Positions 27,851-41,815 of a stretch of 64,000 nt of DNA are shown piece after piece (position 1 is the stretch's first letter; every line of letters starts with the position of its first letter). Made by a program: the position numbers and the translations under genes. Origin of the DNA: Streptomyces sp. TLI_171 (GTDB lineage: Bacteria; Actinomycetota; Actinomycetes; Streptomycetales; Streptomycetaceae); NCBI RefSeq assembly GCF_003610255.1, contig NZ_RAPS01000001.1, positions 3,720,001 to 3,784,000 on the forward strand, written 5' to 3'. The notes under the pieces are model-generated. The model saw only the letters and a list, made by a program, of their open reading frames with translations, was not told the origin of the DNA and searched no databases.

Positions 27851-27904
27851 CCACCGCCCGCAACGGATTTCGTCCGTCCCTGCCGATCCGGTAGAGTTCC
27901 CCTC

Positions 27905-27994
27905 GGTAGCGTGTCCGAGCGGCCAAAGGAGCACGCCTCGAAAGCGTGTGTGGGGGCAACTCCACCGTGGGTTCGAATCCCACCGCTACCGCCA
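27905..27994 (+). tRNA. tRNA-Ser(CGA), AICE insertion target
   Basis: The acceptor arm GGTAGCG (27905-27911) pairs with CGCTACC (27984-27990), followed by discriminator G and encoded CCA (27992-27994). The anticodon loop CTCGAAA gives anticodon CGA at 27939-27941, closed by CACGC/GCGTG. The long variable arm and GTTCGAATCC T-loop are typical of tRNA-Ser. The gene is intact at the left junction because the integrated element restores the 3' part from the anticodon arm onward. Confidence 0.97.
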
Positions 27995-28048
27995 CTGAGC
28001 AGGACAGACGAAGGCCCCCGACTGGAGACAGTCGGGGGCCTTCGTCGT
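27936..28048. repeat. attL: 113-bp direct repeat (left copy)
   Basis: It begins in the anticodon arm of tRNA-Ser(CGA) (CCTCGAAAGCG...), covers the rest of the tRNA, CCA and the downstream terminator, and ends CTTCGTCGT. It is identical to 41703-41815 over all 113 bases. The base before the repeat differs (G here, A at the right copy), fixing its edge. Confidence 0.96.
28008..28045 (+). terminator. tRNA-Ser terminator, duplicated with att
   Basis: The 17-bp arms (28008-28024 and 28029-28045) close a GAGA loop. The hairpin lies within the att repeat, so an identical copy exists at 41775-41812. Confidence 0.92.
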
Positions 28049-28051
28049 AGC

Positions 28052-28070
28052 GGTCTCATTTTTGGTCTCA
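28052..28070. promoter_or_regulatory. Paired GGTCTCA motifs beside attL
   Basis: GGTCTCA occurs at 28052-28058 and 28064-28070, 12 bp apart, 3 bp inside the left att repeat. The same pair with the same 12-bp period occurs inside the right end (41588, 41600). They are candidate integrase or Xis arm-binding sites. Confidence 0.4.
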
Positions 28071-28130
28071 GTTCGGCGGAAGTCGCAAACTAGTCGCCCG
28101 GTTGGGGGAGACCGGCTACCTTCTCTCCGT

Positions 28131-29042
28131 ATGGACGACTCCCTCTCGTTCGCCGCCTTCGTCGATGGCGCACAGAAGGCCGCGCATCGAGCCATGGAGG
28201 ATCATGGCCGCGGTGACTACGACGAGTTCGCTCTCCACGCCGGAGTCGCGGTTGAGAAGCTGGCCAAGGGTGTTCTAGTCCAGAAGAACCCGCTGTACAT
28301 CGTCGACATGCGCGGCGGCGCGGAGATGCTGTTCCACCTCGGAGGCCATCGCCTGGCCCGCAAGGTTCGGACGATCGGGGCAACTGAAACACTCGCCCGG
28401 CTCCGGATGCTTGATGTCTCGCTTCCTGGCGCGCAGCTTGACCTCTTGATCGACATGCGTAACGGAGTTGCGCACTCCGTGGCCAGCAGCCAGGCAAAGT
28501 CGCTTCTCCCAACGTTCGCCGAGACTGTCACCGCCTTGGCGAACGAAGCAGCCGAGGACATCGAGCGATTTTGGGGCCGGTGGGCAGACACCGCGCGTAC
28601 CGCCGTAGACGGCAAGAGCAGTCAGGTCGAGCGCGATGTGATGATCCGCATTCGCCAGGCTCGGCACCGCTTCGACGACCGGTTTGCTGGTCTCCCGGAA
28701 GGTGCCAAGGAGCAGGTTCTCAGTGCTCGGCGGATCCCAGAGCAGTTCACCATTACGACCTTGCCAGACAGTCCCATGGCGGTTCTCAGGTATACCCCAG
28801 TGTGCCCTGCATGCGGTGGCCAGGCGTCAACGGTTTACACGCTCAGCACATCGACCAGCACCACCACGACGATGAACGCCACGGCATTCGCCTGCCAGCT
28901 CTGTGGCCTGGAACTCGACGACTTGGAGGAGATCAGGGCGGCCGACCCGGGAACCGAGACCTGGCCATTGCAGGTTTGCCTCTCTCACAGTTCCCTATTT
29001 CCAGCCGAAACAGTCACCCTCGGTGAAGCCCGCGCTGGATGA
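28131..29042 (+). CDS. HEPN-like Rx4H protein with zinc-ribbon tail
   Basis: This 303-aa protein is not a named family I can cite. Residues ~25-145 are all-helical and contain the HEPN-type RNase motif RNGVAH (Arg110, His115; Rx4H) preceded by LLIDM, with an upstream helix pair (EFALHAGVAVEKLAKGVLVQ) like HEPN domains. The C-terminal part has CPAC (225-228) and CQLC (255-258) with CGG/CGL turns, a zinc-ribbon pattern. The ATG at 28131 opens the frame; no clear ribosome site precedes it. Base composition is visibly less GC-rich than the chromosome. It lies between attL and the integrase, a place where AICEs carry cargo, and has no obvious antitoxin partner. Likely a toxin, abortive-infection or RNA-processing factor. 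Confidence 0.7.
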   Translation: MDDSLSFAAFVDGAQKAAHRAMEDHGRGDYDEFALHAGVAVEKLAKGVLVQKNPLYIVDMRGGAEMLFHLGGHRLARKVRTIGATETLARLRMLDVSLPGAQLDLLIDMRNGVAHSVASSQAKSLLPTFAETVTALANEAAEDIERFWGRWADTARTAVDGKSSQVERDVMIRIRQARHRFDDRFAGLPEGAKEQVLSARRIPEQFTITTLPDSPMAVLRYTPVCPACGGQASTVYTLSTSTSTTTTMNATAFACQLCGLELDDLEEIRAADPGTETWPLQVCLSHSSLFPAETVTLGEARAG

Positions 29043-29155
29043 CGGTCGGCTCGTGTGGAGCCCCTCCAACAGGTGAGGCTCCACAGGCCTTGAGCTGCCA
29101 ACTGATCGCGCCACTACCCGCTACTCCAGCTAGAGCACGGTGGACCTATCGGCGA

Positions 29156-30388
29156 TCAGGACAGTTCGACGGCATCGCTCGCCGCTTTCCAAATAAGTCC
29201 GCCGATCTGCTGGGCCACGTCCCGCCGGACCCGCTTCGTCACGTGCTGGTACCGGTGGGCCATGGCGGTGCTCGACCAGCCCATGATGTCCATCACGATC
29301 CGCTCGGGCACACCGAGGATGAGCAGGATCGTGCCGGCGGTGTGGCGGGCATCGTGGAGGCGGCCGTCCCGGAGGCCGGCGGCCTGGAGAAGCCGCTTCC
29401 ACTCGTCCCAATCGGTCCGTGGGATCAGCGGCTGGCCGGTCTCGGTGGCGAAGACCCACCCACCGTCCTGCCAGAGCTGCCGGGCCTGGAGCCGCTCCCG
29501 CTCCTGCTCCTCCTGGTGGAGCCGGAGCACCTTGATGAGCTGATCGGGCAATCCGATCAGCCGCTTACCCGCCTTCGACTTGGTGGGGGCCGCCTGCTTG
29601 TTCGTCCGGATCCGCTCGGGGCACCGGCCGGCGTGCTTCTTCCCGCAGGACTCGCCCTCGCAGCCGTGACGGTACTTCGGCCGCTGCATGCTCTGGCGGA
29701 CCCAGAGAGTTCCTTCGTCCAGGTCGATGTCCGTCCACTGGAGTCCGAGCGCTTCGCCCTGCCGCAGTCCGAGCGCGAGGGCGACCGCCCACCGGCCGCT
29801 GTTCCGGCGCTTGCCCGCCTCCAGCAGAAGCCGCTGCACCTCCTCGACCTCGTACGGCGTCACCTCCTCCTCTTCCACCTTGGGCGCCGTGGCCAGGGAG
29901 GCTACGTTGCGAGTGATGTGCCCGCGCCTCACCGCCTGGTTGAGCGCGGCCCGGATGGTGCGGTGGGCCTGGTGGGCGGTGGCGGGCTTGCTGCCGTTGT
30001 CCTGCATCTTCTTGTAGAAGCGCTCCAGGTGTTCCGGCTCAAGCTTCTCCAGCCGGTGAGCGCCCAGCCCGGGGATCAAGTGGACGTTGACCGCCACCCG
30101 GTAGCCGGACAGGGTGTTCGGCCGGACCGACAGAGCCGCAATGTTCTCGACCCAGTGGGTGAGCCAGGACGTGACGGTCCACTTCTTGCCGGCCTTCGGG
30201 ATGTTGCCCTCGTCCCGCTTCTTCTCCAGCTCCCGGACCTTCTTGGTGACCTCGGCCCGGTTCTTGCCCCTGATGTGACGCCGGTCGGGGGTGCCGTCGT
30301 CCTTCACACCGACGGTCACGCGGCCGTGCCACTTGCCGTCCTTGTCCTGGTAGATGCTCGAAGCGCCGTTCGGCTGACGGGTTGCCAA
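29156..30388 (-). CDS. int: Tyrosine recombinase (AICE integrase)
   Basis: The 410-aa integrase has an N-terminal arm-binding domain (SIYQDKDGKWHGRV), a SAM-like core-binding domain (~70-160) and the catalytic domain with Arg209 (LGLRQGEALGL), HDAR (His345, Arg348), Trp371 (MGWSS) and nucleophile Tyr380 (AHRYQHV). Between Arg209 and the HxxR box is an insertion with Cys243, Cys248 and Cys256 (HGCEGESCGKKHAGRCP), possibly metal-binding, as in several Streptomyces element integrases. It starts 14 bp after the excisionase stop. It should recombine the 113-bp att sites in tRNA-Ser. Confidence 0.96.
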   Translation of the reverse strand: MATRQPNGASSIYQDKDGKWHGRVTVGVKDDGTPDRRHIRGKNRAEVTKKVRELEKKRDEGNIPKAGKKWTVTSWLTHWVENIAALSVRPNTLSGYRVAVNVHLIPGLGAHRLEKLEPEHLERFYKKMQDNGSKPATAHQAHRTIRAALNQAVRRGHITRNVASLATAPKVEEEEVTPYEVEEVQRLLLEAGKRRNSGRWAVALALGLRQGEALGLQWTDIDLDEGTLWVRQSMQRPKYRHGCEGESCGKKHAGRCPERIRTNKQAAPTKSKAGKRLIGLPDQLIKVLRLHQEEQERERLQARQLWQDGGWVFATETGQPLIPRTDWDEWKRLLQAAGLRDGRLHDARHTAGTILLILGVPERIVMDIMGWSSTAMAHRYQHVTKRVRRDVAQQIGGLIWKAASDAVELS

Positions 30389-30401: not shown

Positions 30402-30644
30402 TCAGGCTGCGATCGGGGCGAAGCCGGACTCCTGCATCCGGCGGCGGACGTACTGAGTCAGCGCCTCGGCCGGCACCCGGCGGAGGCGACCGATGGGGAT
30501 GCTCGGGACCTCGCCCGTACGGATGAGGGCGAACATGGTGGTGCGGCCGACACCGAGGCGGCGGGCCGCCTCTTCGACGGTGAGGGCGATGAGGGTTGAG
30601 TCGTGGTCCTGCGTGGCCGAGAGCTGGGGCAGGTTGGTGCTCAA
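30402..30644 (-). CDS. xis: Excisionase-type helix-turn-helix protein
   Basis: The 80-aa protein has an excisionase/MerR-like winged HTH: LTVEEAARRLGVGRTTMFAL followed by IRTGEVPSIPIGRLRRVPAEA. It starts with TTG at 30644, supported by GGGAGG about 7 bp upstream. It precedes int by 13 bp on the same strand, the usual xis-int order of AICEs. It should direct excision together with Int. Confidence 0.93.
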   Translation of the reverse strand: MSTNLPQLSATQDHDSTLIALTVEEAARRLGVGRTTMFALIRTGEVPSIPIGRLRRVPAEALTQYVRRRMQESGFAPIAA

Positions 30645-32637: not shown

Positions 32638-33492
32638 CTACATCCCCAGCCTGTGGACAGCGTTGCTCCACGCGTCGGCGCAGTGCCGGGGGCTCTCGCC
32701 CTTCGCGCCGGCGGCGGCGAACAGTCGTGCGATGTGCGCCTCCGTCAGGCAGCCGCAGTGGCCGTGTGTGGAGAGCACCGCGAGGAACGCCCCGAACACG
32801 GTGGCGTGCACGGCAGCGGTGGCGGCGGTGATGCGCTGCTCGGCCATGGCGATGCCGCGCTCCAGGTACTTCGGGCTGCGGTGCGGGCAGACCCCGCCGC
32901 CGACCGGCGCGGGGACCGCGGCGCGCATCGGTCGGGCGGGAGCGGGCTCCCGTACCACCATCCCGCGAACGACGTCCGGCAGGGCCGCCACGGTGCCGGT
33001 GCCGGGGCCGAGCCACCGGGCGTAGGACATGGACGACTTGACGTCCACGCCCGGTCGGACGGCGTTGGCGGACGACATGACGCCCCGGTAGATCCAGTGC
33101 TCCCCACGGGTGGTGGCCACGGTCCGGGTCGCGGGCAGGTTCTCCCTGGCCCAGGCGATGGCGTCCGCGTTGTCGAGGTCCACGACCGTGACTCCGGCGC
33201 CGCCCGGGTGGTAGGCGACCGCCGCCGCTACGGCCCAGGCCCGGGCCCACTCGGCGGAGTTGAGGGAGCCGGGGTCGATGGTGGCGGCGGCCCAGCCGTG
33301 GCAGGGGGCCGGGCAGGTGCAGGGGCCGGGGATCTTCATGTTCGGCCGGCCGCCGCACGCGTTGCCGGTGCAGGCGGGGCAGTTGCCGAACGGCACCTTC
33401 CCGGCCCGCAGCGGCAGCACGGGCACGCCGGAGGCGGCCAGAGAGAGCGCCACGGATAGGTGCTCTCCCCGGATGAGGGTGGATTGGGTCAT
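32638..33492 (-). CDS. Bifunctional DNA primase/polymerase (prim-pol)
   Basis: The 284-aa protein shows the AEP prim-pol core: ALSLAASGVPVLPLRAGKVP, the metal-site VVDLDNAD (residues 103-110) and TTRGEHWIYRG. Near the N-terminus there is a Cys-rich zinc segment (CPACTGNACGG, then CTCPAPC). I start it at 33492 (MTQSTLIRG) with GGAGAG upstream; the extension to 33636 crosses the repeat region. It synthesises primers for AICE replication. Confidence 0.92.
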   Translation of the reverse strand: MTQSTLIRGEHLSVALSLAASGVPVLPLRAGKVPFGNCPACTGNACGGRPNMKIPGPCTCPAPCHGWAAATIDPGSLNSAEWARAWAVAAAVAYHPGGAGVTVVDLDNADAIAWARENLPATRTVATTRGEHWIYRGVMSSANAVRPGVDVKSSMSYARWLGPGTGTVAALPDVVRGMVVREPAPARPMRAAVPAPVGGGVCPHRSPKYLERGIAMAEQRITAATAAVHATVFGAFLAVLSTHGHCGCLTEAHIARLFAAAGAKGESPRHCADAWSNAVHRLGM

Positions 33493-33580: not shown

Positions 33581-33691
33581 CTGTCAGAGCAGGTGTCAGA
33601 CGCGGGTGTCAGAGCGGTGTCAGGCCGCTCTGACACCCGCGTCTGCCTAGGGGTTTGGGTGTCAGGGGGTGTCAGGTGTCAGGGGTGTCAG
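33581..33691. repeat. GTGTCAG repeat cluster at traB 3' end (candidate clt)
   Basis: GTGTCAG occurs exactly at 33593, 33606, 33617, 33659, 33669, 33676 and 33685, inverted at 33630, with CTGTCAG at 33581. The last copy overlaps the translocase stop codon. In Streptomyces plasmids the TraB translocase recognises short direct repeats in the clt locus near the tra gene; these repeats are a natural candidate. They could instead be replication iterons for the adjacent prim-pol. Confidence 0.5.
33599..33643. terminator. 19-bp stem-loop between traB and prim-pol
   Basis: Perfect arms 33599-33617 and 33625-33643 with a 7-nt loop incorporate three of the GTGTCAG boxes. It may end the tra transcript, or be a structured recognition site. 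Confidence 0.65.
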
Positions 33692-35769
33692 ACCAGCGCC
33701 GGGGCGGGGGTGATGCGGTACCGGCCCTTCTGCGCGGCCGGCACCAGGCGACCGTCCTCGACCATGCGTCGGAACTCGCCCGACACCCACGGACGGGAGC
33801 GCCCGAGGCGGGCGGCCTGGTCCATGACGTCCTTCGGGCCGATGACCATCACGCCGCGCTGCTCGAACTCGGCGATGATGCCTTCCATCGCGGCGCGGGC
33901 TTCCTCGGGCGTGAACTCCGGCGCCGGCGCGCCGAGGGTGATCGCGGCCAGGGTGCCCGGGACGGGCGGGAGTTCGGCCTGCGGGTCGAGGTGGGCGTCC
34001 TCCGCGTCCACCCGCCCCACCGCCTCCGGCTCCCGCTCCCGGTCGTCGTCGCTGTCGCCGTCGCTGTCGGCTAGGTACACGCTGCCCTCCCCCGCGTCGT
34101 CGGCGTCTGCGTCGGTGTGGTGGCGGTGGGTGTAGGCGTTGCCGACGGCGGCCGCGGCGGCCTTGGCGGTGATGGGGTCGACGGTGGCTCCGTTGCGGCG
34201 GGCCCACTGGGCGAGCTGTTCCATGACGCGGGCGGCGCTGCCGGTGAAGCGCAGGGTGCGGCTCGGGGCGCTGTAGCGCTGCTCATCCACGCCCGGGGTG
34301 ACCAGGTAGCAGTACCCGGGGCGGCGGTTGCCCCACGCCCCCGGGTGCGCACCCGCGTCCAGCACCGACGGCGGGAGTGCCATGCCCTCGTCCCTCGGGT
34401 CCAGGCCGAAGCACAGCACCGAGGGGATGGACGCGCGGGTGCTGGTGGAGAGCTGGTCGTGGCTCGGGCGCTGGAGCGAGATGACCAGCGAGATGCCCGC
34501 CGACCGGGCCTCTTGGGCGATGCCGGTGAAGGTGTCGTCGCCCATGAACCGCAGGGTGTTGGCGGCTTCCTCGAACCAGCCGACCAGGAACGGCATGCCC
34601 TCACACCCGCACGCCCCTCCCCTGCGGCACGAGTGCGCCGGGTCGGTCTGCGGCTCAGCAGCGGCCGGCACCCACTGGCGGTAGCCGTGCTCACCCAGCC
34701 ACCGGGTCCGGGCGGGGATGACCGCCTGCAGCGCGGTCACCATCGTCTCGGTCGCCGCGCCGCCTTCCACGGCCCAGTCCATGCCGGGCCTCAGCGGACC
34801 GAAGTCCTGGAACGACTTCGGGTCGGAGAACCACACGATGACGTCGCGGCGGCCCATGATCTCGGACACCACGTTCAGCGCTCCGTCGCCCTTGCCGGAG
34901 CCGGTCCCGCCGCAGATCAGCAGGTGCGTCGAGTTGCGGCCCGCCTGCGGGTCGCCGGGCAGCCACAGCACCAGCGGGGACCCGTCGTCGTAGCGGCCGA
35001 TGACCAGCGGATCGGCGATGGAGCCGCCGACGTTCGTGGGCATCTCCCACTCGACCACCTCGGCGAGCATGTCCTTCGGGACCACGGTGAGGGTGCCGCG
35101 CCGGGCGGAGTCCGGGTCGGGCAGGTACCGTACCGCCGTCGGCGCGACGTCGAGGGCGGAGGCGATGTTGCCCAGCGACCGGGCCACGTCGTCGTTCGTC
35201 AACTCGCCAGCAGGCAGCACGATTTCGGCGTTGACCCGATTGGGCTCCACCTCGGTCTTGCGGATCTTCGCCCCGGCGAGCTTCACCTTCTCCAGCAGCG
35301 ACCCGTCCGCGTCGGTCCCGGCCTGGACCGCTTCGGGGTTGCGGCGCATCACCTGACGGACGTTCCACGACAGCGCCAGCGCGCCGCCGCCGATCCAGAA
35401 CGCACCGAAGGTGAAGGAGTTCCAGCCCGCCAGAGCCATCGTCGTGAACCACGTGCTCGCCGCCGCGACCGTGACGGCCGAGTGGAGTCGGCGCTGCTGC
35501 GTGGTGGACTTCCCCGCCCACGCGGTCACCCCGGTCACGGCAACCGATCCGAGGGTCAGGCCGACCGCGTAGCCGGGGGAGCCGTGCGCCGGCACCCACG
35601 CCACCGAACCCGCGAGCCCCGTGGCGGCGGCGAGGATCCACGGCGGGGTGTAGGGCTTGGCGCGGTGGGCGACCCACGCACCGACGCCTTCCAGGGTGCT
35701 GGCACCCTCCAGGGACTCCCGGTGCTGGGCTTCGGCGTCGCCGTTCTTGCTCGTGCTGTTCCTGCCCAT
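33688..35769 (-). CDS. TraB-like FtsK/SpoIIIE DNA translocase
   Basis: The 693-aa protein has N-terminal membrane segments (about residues 43-80 and 97-135), an FtsK-type motor with P-loop GGTGSGKG (287-294), a WFSDPKSFQDF segment, a Walker-B-like VGWFEEAANTL, an acidic linker (DSDGDSDDDRE) and a C-terminal winged helix (AARLGRSRPWVSGEFRRMVE). This matches the single-protein conjugative translocases of AICEs, which move double-stranded DNA. The P-loop is odd: GKG-D replaces the usual GKS/T. Between P-loop and Walker B is a Cys cluster (CRRGGACGCEG). The C-terminal winged helix should recognise clt repeats. Confidence 0.93.
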   Translation of the reverse strand: MGRNSTSKNGDAEAQHRESLEGASTLEGVGAWVAHRAKPYTPPWILAAATGLAGSVAWVPAHGSPGYAVGLTLGSVAVTGVTAWAGKSTTQQRRLHSAVTVAAASTWFTTMALAGWNSFTFGAFWIGGGALALSWNVRQVMRRNPEAVQAGTDADGSLLEKVKLAGAKIRKTEVEPNRVNAEIVLPAGELTNDDVARSLGNIASALDVAPTAVRYLPDPDSARRGTLTVVPKDMLAEVVEWEMPTNVGGSIADPLVIGRYDDGSPLVLWLPGDPQAGRNSTHLLICGGTGSGKGDGALNVVSEIMGRRDVIVWFSDPKSFQDFGPLRPGMDWAVEGGAATETMVTALQAVIPARTRWLGEHGYRQWVPAAAEPQTDPAHSCRRGGACGCEGMPFLVGWFEEAANTLRFMGDDTFTGIAQEARSAGISLVISLQRPSHDQLSTSTRASIPSVLCFGLDPRDEGMALPPSVLDAGAHPGAWGNRRPGYCYLVTPGVDEQRYSAPSRTLRFTGSAARVMEQLAQWARRNGATVDPITAKAAAAAVGNAYTHRHHTDADADDAGEGSVYLADSDGDSDDDREREPEAVGRVDAEDAHLDPQAELPPVPGTLAAITLGAPAPEFTPEEARAAMEGIIAEFEQRGVMVIGPKDVMDQAARLGRSRPWVSGEFRRMVEDGRLVPAAQKGRYRITPAPALV

Positions 35770-39379: not shown

Positions 39380-40228
39380 ATGAGCCTCGACCCGGATGAC
39401 TCCCGCCCGCCGTATCAGCAGGTCAGCAGCTCTTTGCGGGCCTCGATCCTGACGAAGAAACCCGGCTTCGAAACCGGCGACAAGCTCCCGTCCGGCCCTG
39501 AGCTCGCCAAGCACTTCGGCGTGGCACGCGGCACGATCGACAAGGCTCTCGACCTGCTCAGGACCGAAGGGCTGATCGTGACCCGGCAGGGCAGCGGTTC
39601 CTTCGTCCGCGAGCGCACGTCTCGACCGGTCGGTCTTCGCCCCCACCTCGAAGCAGCATTCGAGCAGCAGCAGGTGACTCTCGACTTCGCAGGCTTCTCC
39701 AGCGAGACGCTCCACAACGCCATGCAGGAACCGCTCGACAAGGTGCGCTCCGGACGGCTGGCCCCGGAGTCCATCACCGTGCGCCTCTTGCTGCCGGACA
39801 CGTCCGAGCCAATGGCCGTGCCCGTGCTGGTGGATGGGCTCAAGGACGAACCCGCGCTCCGGGACCGCGCACGCAACATCGCGGTGACCAACGCTGGCGG
39901 AATCGCCCACTCAGTCGAGATGCTGGCGGAGCTTGGTCTCGTCCAGTCGGCCACGGTTCAGGTGAAGGTGCACCGGGCGTCCAGCCTGTTCAAGCTGTAC
40001 ATCCTGAACCGCTCAGAGGCGTTCTTCGGCTTCTATCCGCTCCGGGAGCGAACGGTGGCCATCGACGGCAACGACCGCACGTTCTACGACGTCACCGGCA
40101 AGGACACCACGCTCTTCCACCATGCCTCCGGCCCAGACGATGCCTCGCTCGGATCGCAGTACGTCCAGCAGGCACAGATGTGGTTCGACAGCGTGTGGTC
40201 CACGATCGCGTACGAGCGCCAGCCGTGA
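39380..40228 (+). CDS. GntR family regulator of the AICE
   Basis: The 282-aa protein has the GntR winged helix at residues 12-75 (YQQVSSSLRASIL, PSGPELAKHFGVARGTIDKA, GLIVTRQGSGSFV) and a C-terminal domain unlike the common FadR or HutC types at a glance (ESITVRLLLPDTSEPMAVPV). GntR-HAD gene pairs recur in AICEs, where the regulator (Pra/KorSA-like role) controls transfer and replication. ATG at 39380. The stop overlaps the HAD gene start (GTGA). It is divergent from the transfer operon across a palindrome-rich gap. Confidence 0.88.
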   Translation: MSLDPDDSRPPYQQVSSSLRASILTKKPGFETGDKLPSGPELAKHFGVARGTIDKALDLLRTEGLIVTRQGSGSFVRERTSRPVGLRPHLEAAFEQQQVTLDFAGFSSETLHNAMQEPLDKVRSGRLAPESITVRLLLPDTSEPMAVPVLVDGLKDEPALRDRARNIAVTNAGGIAHSVEMLAELGLVQSATVQVKVHRASSLFKLYILNRSEAFFGFYPLRERTVAIDGNDRTFYDVTGKDTTLFHHASGPDDASLGSQYVQQAQMWFDSVWSTIAYERQP

Positions 40229-41702: not shown

Positions 41703-41815
41703 CCTCGAAAGCGTGTGTGGGGGCAACTCCACCGTGGGTTCGAATCCCACCGCTACCGCCACTGAGCAGGACAGACGAAGGCCCCCGACTGGAGACAGTC
41801 GGGGGCCTTCGTCGT
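41703..41815. repeat. attR: 113-bp direct repeat (right copy)
   Basis: It is identical to attL. It contains the 3' part of tRNA-Ser from the anticodon arm through CCA plus the terminator, but no 5' half, so it is not a functional tRNA gene. Confidence 0.96.

Follow-up and report, generated by a model that had tools for sequence, protein, structure and literature searches.

A HEPN–zinc-ribbon gene between the attachment site and integrase of a Streptomyces AICE-like element, a candidate abortive-infection effector

The gene at positions 28131 to 29042 (+ strand) of the window, the 64,000-nucleotide stretch of Streptomyces sp. TLI_171 DNA analyzed here, encodes a 303-amino-acid protein whose first half is confidently predicted, from its modeled structure, to have a HEPN fold and whose tail carries a zinc-ribbon-like motif. 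We put at about even the chance that the gene is self-contained cargo, a cassette whose single protein is a HEPN RNase effector of abortive infection, a reading in which defence, RNase activity, and trigger are what we infer. As far as was searched, descriptions of the HEPN–zinc-ribbon family, of the promoter of its cassette, and of its slot in prophages were not found, and HEPN–zinc-ribbon fusions as such are already known; a literature search of titles and abstracts (subscription journals scarcely covered) returned no paper recognizable as dealing with the family, the promoter, or the slot.

The carrier is an AICE-like element, with att repeats at a tRNA gene, a tyrosine integrase, and a Prim-Pol replication protein. 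It spans 13.8 kb bracketed by a perfect 113-nt direct repeat (attL side, 27936 to 28048; attR side, 41703 to 41815; 100% identical), of which the attL-side copy begins inside the tRNA-Ser(CGA) gene used as integration target (27905 to 27994, + strand; ARAGORN) and takes in the hairpin after the tRNA. Its genes include those for the tyrosine integrase (29156 to 30388, − strand; PF00589, 2.9e-22), an HTH_17 protein whose inferred role is that of a probable excisionase (30402 to 30644, − strand; PF12728, 3.2e-11), the Prim-Pol protein (32638 to 33453, − strand; PF09250, 5.9e-10), an FtsK/TraB-like transfer protein (33688 to 35769, − strand; PF01580, 0.0047, below the cut-off), and a GntR regulator (39380 to 40228, + strand; PF00392, 1.8e-14). 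A second integrase, 66% identical to the window's, is encoded about 97 kb away in the same genome (G000:C1:3652394-3653596; L158) and perhaps belongs to another AICE.

Integrases at least 85% identical to the window's were found in 5 of 70 genomes of the genus (own genome included), all beside tRNA-Ser(CGA). Because its contents vary among these five related elements, the att-int interval can be called a cargo slot, as the original prediction had supposed: it holds the HEPN gene in two (the window and L136), a small ORF in two (L135 and L137), and about 64 nt only in one (L138). Likeness of the three elements without the HEPN gene to the window ends at 28073 to 28074 and restarts at 29181 to 29188. 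The slot ORF of L135 (L135:2799-3191; 131 aa, with Cys motifs, on the strand opposite to the HEPN gene, with similar DNA in L137) had no Pfam match over the cut-off. In the window, 82 nt separate the repeat from the HEPN start codon and 113 nt separate the HEPN stop from the integrase stop; these gaps are too short to hold a usual antitoxin gene, and none adjoins, in agreement with the earlier remark that no antitoxin was visible. An element of Kitasatospora phosalacinea (L083:11036-16020) has in common with the window the att site, the HEPN gene, the integrase (97%), and the probable excisionase (81%). Beyond this same HEPN-int-xis end stands another next gene, DnaB-like by eye, which suggests module exchange; no match to the window's rep or tra genes was found in this element at an E value of 1e-5.

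The 303-aa gene is real and under purifying selection. Compared with the K. phosalacinea copy (87% identical), dN is 0.071 and dS 0.465 (dN/dS about 0.15), with 28, 18, and 79 substitutions at codon positions 1, 2, and 3. The frame runs from the ATG at 28131 to the stop codon at 29040 to 29042; a TTG 23 codons upstream is a possible alternative start, and in favor of the ATG the same aligned position is an ATG in many relatives and the promoter-like box also fits it. Its GC3 (0.73) is below those of the integrase (0.91) and TraB-like (0.94) genes, a difference that cargo acquired from elsewhere would be expected to show.

A main set of 51 proteins (the window's own and 50 relatives) from 48 loci was assembled by sequence similarity; its members come from whole genomes, plasmids, and a single viral contig. 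The alignment contains all matches kept, including near-duplicates (e.g., L081/L082 and L042/L064). From 39 genome-contig loci, L091 (broken frame) and L120 and L121 (short) were left out before alignment, and L112 (uncertain start) was left out of alignment A3. Motif conservation is quoted from the 51-protein set only, because the patterns of the genome-contig scan partly contain RNG..H.

The R-x4-H motif RNGVAH, on which the original prediction had founded its HEPN assignment, is confirmed in the translation at codons 110 to 115 (28458 to 28475, + strand). By itself such a motif is weak evidence, since one or more turned up in 47% of 5,000 shuffled versions of the protein and the window protein has a second at R20. 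Its conservation across the family takes it beyond chance: R110, N111, and H115 are present in 51/51 proteins. Also conserved are E42 (51/51) and K46 (50/51), at the two ends of codons 42 to 46 (28254 to 28268, + strand).

An AlphaFold2 model built with 37 aligned sequences has a pLDDT of 86.5, with residues 10 to 150 mostly above 90. Compared with solved structures using VIA, it placed HEPN-type structures at ranks 1 to 12, from 2hsb (Z, 14.1; rmsd, 2.6; 117 residues aligned) down to AbiV (Z, 5.8), and unrelated rows begin near Z 5.7; Z values below about 13, which 2hsb alone exceeds, can be chance for helical bundles. The top ten rows (Z, 14.1 to 8.0) are all HEPN-type, five by title (2hsb, 1o3u, 1wol, and the HEPN toxins 8xeh [Z, 10.2] and 8xdj [Z, 10.0]) and five that we take to be so (1ufb, 2q00, 7bxo, 1wty, and Csm6 6tug). 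Foldseek against the PDB also placed HEPN structures at ranks 1 to 3, but with weak E values (0.2 and above); at an E value of ≤0.001 it returned nothing from viral models for the window protein and nothing from the PDB, whether the query was the full-length protein or the tail. PF05168 matched the window protein below the cut-off (E, 0.0038) and was matched by 26 of 49 family members at E values up to 1. We hold the HEPN assignment to be firm because fold and motif come together, and the two point to a dimeric RNase.

The tail motif CPAC...CQLC (codons 225 to 258, 28803 to 28904, + strand) comprises residues 225 to 228 and 255 to 258. C225, C255, and C258 are conserved in 51/51 family proteins and C228 in 50/51, and two or more CxxC pairs arose in 0.2% of the shuffles. 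When modeled in isolation, the tail forms strands at 31 to 41 and 45 to 55 (tail numbering) between the Cys pairs, and this beta-rich region with two conserved CxxC pairs agrees with the zinc-ribbon-type tail originally proposed. The name "zinc ribbon" rests on the Cys pattern; with VIA, nothing among solved structures rose above Z 4.3, the best row being the tandem ZPR1 domains of 2qkd (49 residues, tied with unrelated rows), and PF12760 matched below the cut-off (E, 0.0042). A Lar-like restriction alleviation protein was considered and rejected (NCBIfam TIGR03655 aligns with nothing beyond the Cys region, and its E value of 0.0086 falls well short of the cut-off).

The family was found in 7 of 70 genus genomes and 45 of 394 family genomes, and a profile search of the phylum matched 8 of 396 genomes (own genome counted in each). 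Two relatives from other families of the phylum (L207 and L208, in genomes of 2.3 to 2.5 Mb) keep RNG..H and both CxxC pairs. Out of 12 relatives on viral contigs, 11 lie in siphovirus-like prophages, preceded by tail genes and followed by a lysis block in the same orientation; the 12th has the lysis side only. Among 37 genome-contig loci, both sides were found in 6 and the downstream part alone in 3. This context was scored over 65 loci, redundancy included (e.g., L051/L131, L062/L133, and L096/L128), with a few phages supplying the marker genes for similarity matching; PHROGs names for the flanks were tape measure, Dit, minor tail, tail fibre, and endolysin. INPHARED phage records held no family match. 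Matches occurred in 27 plasmid records (the six opened were linear), with ParAB beside the HEPN gene in two linear plasmids and, in one, a helicase gene at 3 kb from the end of the plasmid. In one genome, copies lie near each of the two ends of the chromosome, and HEPN copies are in tandem in L094, L100, and L122. The tree places the window pair in a group of 36 rows (SH-aLRT, 99) with 19 tail-lysis copies (a looser label here, for one or both sides) and 3 plasmid copies; context labels are scattered, yet more clustered than shuffled labels (short tree search).

The survey gave weak or no support to the proposed link between family members and att sites: the direct att-HEPN-int order was seen in just two loci, those of the window and of K. 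phosalacinea, and many others are in prophages or linear plasmids. We therefore rejected att-linked element stability as a general role, and the proposed "element-stability factor" likewise gained nothing from relatives that lie so often in prophage tail-lysis intervals or linear plasmids. Integrase-like genes within about 2 to 8 kb of the HEPN gene in L079, L098, and L108 (found by similarity to the window's integrase), L119 (by clustering), and L111 (by eye) speak for mobile elements in general. L111 and L119 are sister HEPN copies with a tRNA gene within 5 to 6.3 kb (tRNA-Pro in L111) and, with integrase-like genes also near, may sit in other integrative elements.

A putative leaderless promoter (28086 to 28130, + strand) was predicted from a −10-like TACCTT that ends 8 nt before the ATG; the region holds no Shine-Dalgarno match and has a AAACTAGTCGCCC stretch upstream of the −10-like box. 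Scans of window positions 27900 to 29300 for sigma-70 consensus promoters and T-run terminators found none. Across the family, TANNNT ends 6 to 8 nt before the start in 50 of 52 distinct HEPN upstream regions, compared with 34 of 415 background genes (from the same loci, with starts from a crude gene caller, so that promoter boxes may be undercounted in this background), and a Shine-Dalgarno-like match is present in 1/52 compared with 151/415. The two regions without the −10 box (L112 and L119) have uncertain starts. Leaderless transcription is common in S. coelicolor, with 264 leaderless mRNAs (PMC4681348), and the upstream sequences suggest that HEPN genes carry a leaderless-type promoter and so form an autonomous cassette. 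The HEPN stop is followed by a strong hairpin (29043 to 29110, + strand; −32.1 kcal/mol), terminator-like without a T-run, and a similar one follows the K. phosalacinea copy (−34.9 kcal/mol).

Upstream of the −10 box, some of the HEPN regions show a clear dyad (CCTGTA-N-TACAGG), which in many others is imperfect or absent; in the window, the −10-like box is kept and the dyad is not recognizable. At the dyad center, 237 of 424 cells pair, compared with 81 to 145 when the center is slid by 1 to 8. Seven perfect pairs occur in 8/50 regions and at least six in 11/50, where shuffling predicts 0.24% and 6.9%, respectively. Over ten pairs, 271 of 530 cells are paired, more than in all of 500 column shuffles (maximum, 255), a result that kinship alone can give without constraint. 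A search of 2.0 Mb of loci, all picked for kinship to the family or for holding the dyad, gave 69 dyad-plus-leaderless sites (repeats from overlapping loci counted, no shuffled control): 61 before HEPN genes, 6 (4 distinct) before a gene whose protein begins MAR(T/S)CVFC, and 2 others. The dyad at 0 mismatches is absent from the own genome. When 1 mismatch was allowed in 13 genomes or records, whole-genome matches were fewer than those of a reversed control pattern, and only perfect sites were therefore followed. One perfect dyad (L100:17269; G398:C33:12380) is followed by neither a HEPN nor an HNH-like gene, and two HEPN copies lie on the same contig. A 15-mer dyad search of viral contigs gave 23 stretches, two of them (L162 and L181) on known HEPN contigs, and says nothing on other targets, since by rough estimate it is at chance level. 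Promoter pattern scans gave 4 and 5 stretches, of which three (L220, L221, and L227) lie before HEPN genes, one (L181) falls on an already known HEPN contig, and 5 have no HEPN gene.

The MAR(T/S)CVFC protein (C-x2-C, EH..P.WL, and C-x2-CN.GWM) is HNH-like by eye and found no match in Pfam (E values up to 0.01) or PADLOC (E values up to 1). It is encoded near HEPN genes in prophages (L094:8150-8890, L093:9183-9944, L098:9191-9958, and L188), with the same leaderless promoter and dyad. Its relatives lie just upstream of the HEPN gene in 8 of 87 loci compared, with three more found by promoter, and occur in 11 plasmid records; the gene is absent at the window. Auto-regulation by the HEPN protein through the dyad was rejected, and a common regulator is likelier, because the dyad also precedes HNH-like genes.

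In the abortive-infection reading, the HEPN domain would dimerize, with Arg110 and His115 of two chains forming one RNase site, and the zinc-ribbon tail would bind the trigger or the target. Something made by an infecting phage or by a competing element would activate the protein, until then kept inactive; once triggered, it would cut cellular RNA, arrest the cell, and stop the intruder, and the resident element and sister cells would be protected. We consider this the best reading because a single gene, without an evident partner, recurs on mobile elements, prophages among them. AICEs are described as carrying phage-resistance cargo (PMC9513070). Points against the reading are that neither an inhibitor nor a sensor partner came to light, that the window protein gave no PADLOC match at E values up to 1 and no PHROGs match better than 0.12, and that the tail-lysis context was complete in just 6 of 37 genome-contig relatives. 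Elsewhere in the family, PADLOC PDC-S64 was matched by 17 of 49 members at E values up to 1 (among ten itemized, one divergent paralogue matches strongly), and two members match phrog_37794, of unknown function (2.4e-10).

Clearly less probable, while still a serious competitor, is a non-defensive HEPN RNase that trims or controls element or host RNA as fitness or regulatory cargo. The window protein's want of a match in a defence database (PADLOC) would suit it, as would the presence of family members outside prophages (on plasmids, next to ParAB, and at the two ends of one chromosome), and a leaderless-type promoter would fit constitutive expression; the patchy distribution and the prophage tail-lysis slot, however, fit conflict genes better. 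That slot, between tail and lysis genes and on their strand, is what a phage-late or superinfection gene of the prophage lytic cycle (lysis timing or exclusion), present in the AICE fortuitously, would occupy. We regard this as unlikely in view of the promoter-like sequence that the gene has of its own, the tandem copies in three loci, and the copies that plasmids and AICEs carry away from any block of tail and lysis genes.

Distinctly improbable is the toxin of a toxin-antitoxin or addiction module that stabilizes the element, its antitoxin being small, antisense, or elsewhere. HEPN-MNT toxins (type VII) share the fold (VIA Z, 10.0 to 10.5), and their motif is R-x4-H-x-Y with an AMPylated Tyr. 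No Tyr stands at H+2 in 51/51 family proteins, so the family is not of the R-x4-H-x-Y type; with H-x-Y absent and no adjacent MNT gene, identity as a HEPN-MNT toxin was rejected. AICEs can carry toxin-antitoxin genes (PMC9513070), but here the flanking gaps have no space for the usual adjacent gene, and the sole recurrent non-phage neighbor noticed is the HNH-like gene, which the window lacks. A 183-codon antisense frame is open in both the window and K. phosalacinea copies and could encode a partner; in a crude comparison, open antisense frames have a median of 178 codons in 36 HEPN genes against 275 in 65 other genes of the same loci, no longer than background, and an overlapping antisense inhibitor is judged unlikely. 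A HEPN scaffold without catalytic activity, joined to a zinc ribbon, would have precedent in several HEPN families that lack the motif (PMC3710099), but it is highly improbable with R110, N111, and H115 kept in all 51 family proteins, including relatives at 20 to 30% identity.

Returning to the abortive-infection reading, we tentatively extend it, as a possibility on which we would not rely, to a distributed regulon of one-gene anti-phage cassettes on Streptomyces prophages and linear plasmids. A common regulator would act through CCTGTA-N-TACAGG on leaderless promoters of the HEPN and HNH-like families, the tail would sense the intruder, and the window copy would have escaped by loss of the dyad. 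In a bolder variant, which is speculation by analogy, the dyad would be a DNA self-immunity tag like the aba element of BstA, where self-protection comes from a DNA element within the locus (PMC8585504). If the effector reading is true, a one-gene HEPN effector family is added to actinobacterial immunity, with the same cassette and promoter type across prophages, linear plasmids, and integrative elements. The dyad common to two unrelated cassette families would offer a handle on what controls such genes, and the family alignment supplies ready mutants (R110, H115, and the four Cys). Taken as a whole, the original prediction held for the HEPN fold, the motifs (Arg110, His115, and the four Cys being conserved among homologues), the cargo slot, and the lack of an adjacent antitoxin; it gained weak or no support for the att-site link, the defence role that it proposed is plausible, and the fusion of HEPN with a zinc ribbon is not in itself undescribed.

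Such fusions are in fact listed in a 2013 survey (PMC3710099, Table 1), which includes HEPN families with R-x4-H, some fused to zinc ribbons, e.g., EC042_2821/DUF3644-overlapping. DUF3644 (PF12358) had no match in the window protein at E values up to 1 and none in its own genome; it was found in 5 of 249 family genomes, and translation of the five Streptomycetaceae stretches showed no CxxC pairs. A divergent HEPN paralogue from Streptomycetaceae (L061:6227-7105, − strand) matches PADLOC DUF3644 (5e-21), HEC-08 (2e-18), and PDC-S64 (1.5e-18) and aligns to the family profile over 125 columns (P, 5e-4). This paralogue has extra CxxC pairs, and a closer relative of the window protein lies on the same contig.

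AbiV, a lactococcal HEPN RNase (PDB 9bj5 to 9bj7), gave a low-level structural match (VIA Z, 5.4 to 5.8, over 109 to 128 residues, tied with unrelated rows); it belongs to a two-component antiphage system by PDB title, whereas no partner gene was found at the window. Csm6, a type III CRISPR effector, has a HEPN RNase domain (VIA Z, 8.0 and 7.0), and its CARF domain was not found in the window protein by Pfam. Tha, a HEPN protein of 301 aa that is encoded by a prophage and carries RNSIMH, has been proved to defend as an RNase that tail proteins of the incoming phage set off (PMC11087260). Like the window gene, Tha-1 and Tha-2 of Staphylococcus aureus prophages are one gene of about 300 aa with one HEPN domain and R-N-x3-H. 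In phage 80alpha, Tha is close to int, with the inhibitor gene ith alone between them; in the window, 113 nt with a hairpin and no gene separate HEPN and int. The HEPN domain is C-terminal in Tha and N-terminal in the window protein, and zinc is not mentioned in the main text of the Tha report (PMC11087260). Alignment of the family profile with Tha-1 (hhalign) gave a probability of 1.2% over 34 columns around the motif, and because no kinship is detectable beyond the motif, the likeness claimed is one of working only: our best reading, by analogy, is that the HEPN–zinc-ribbon protein is functionally like Tha and not detectably of the same family.
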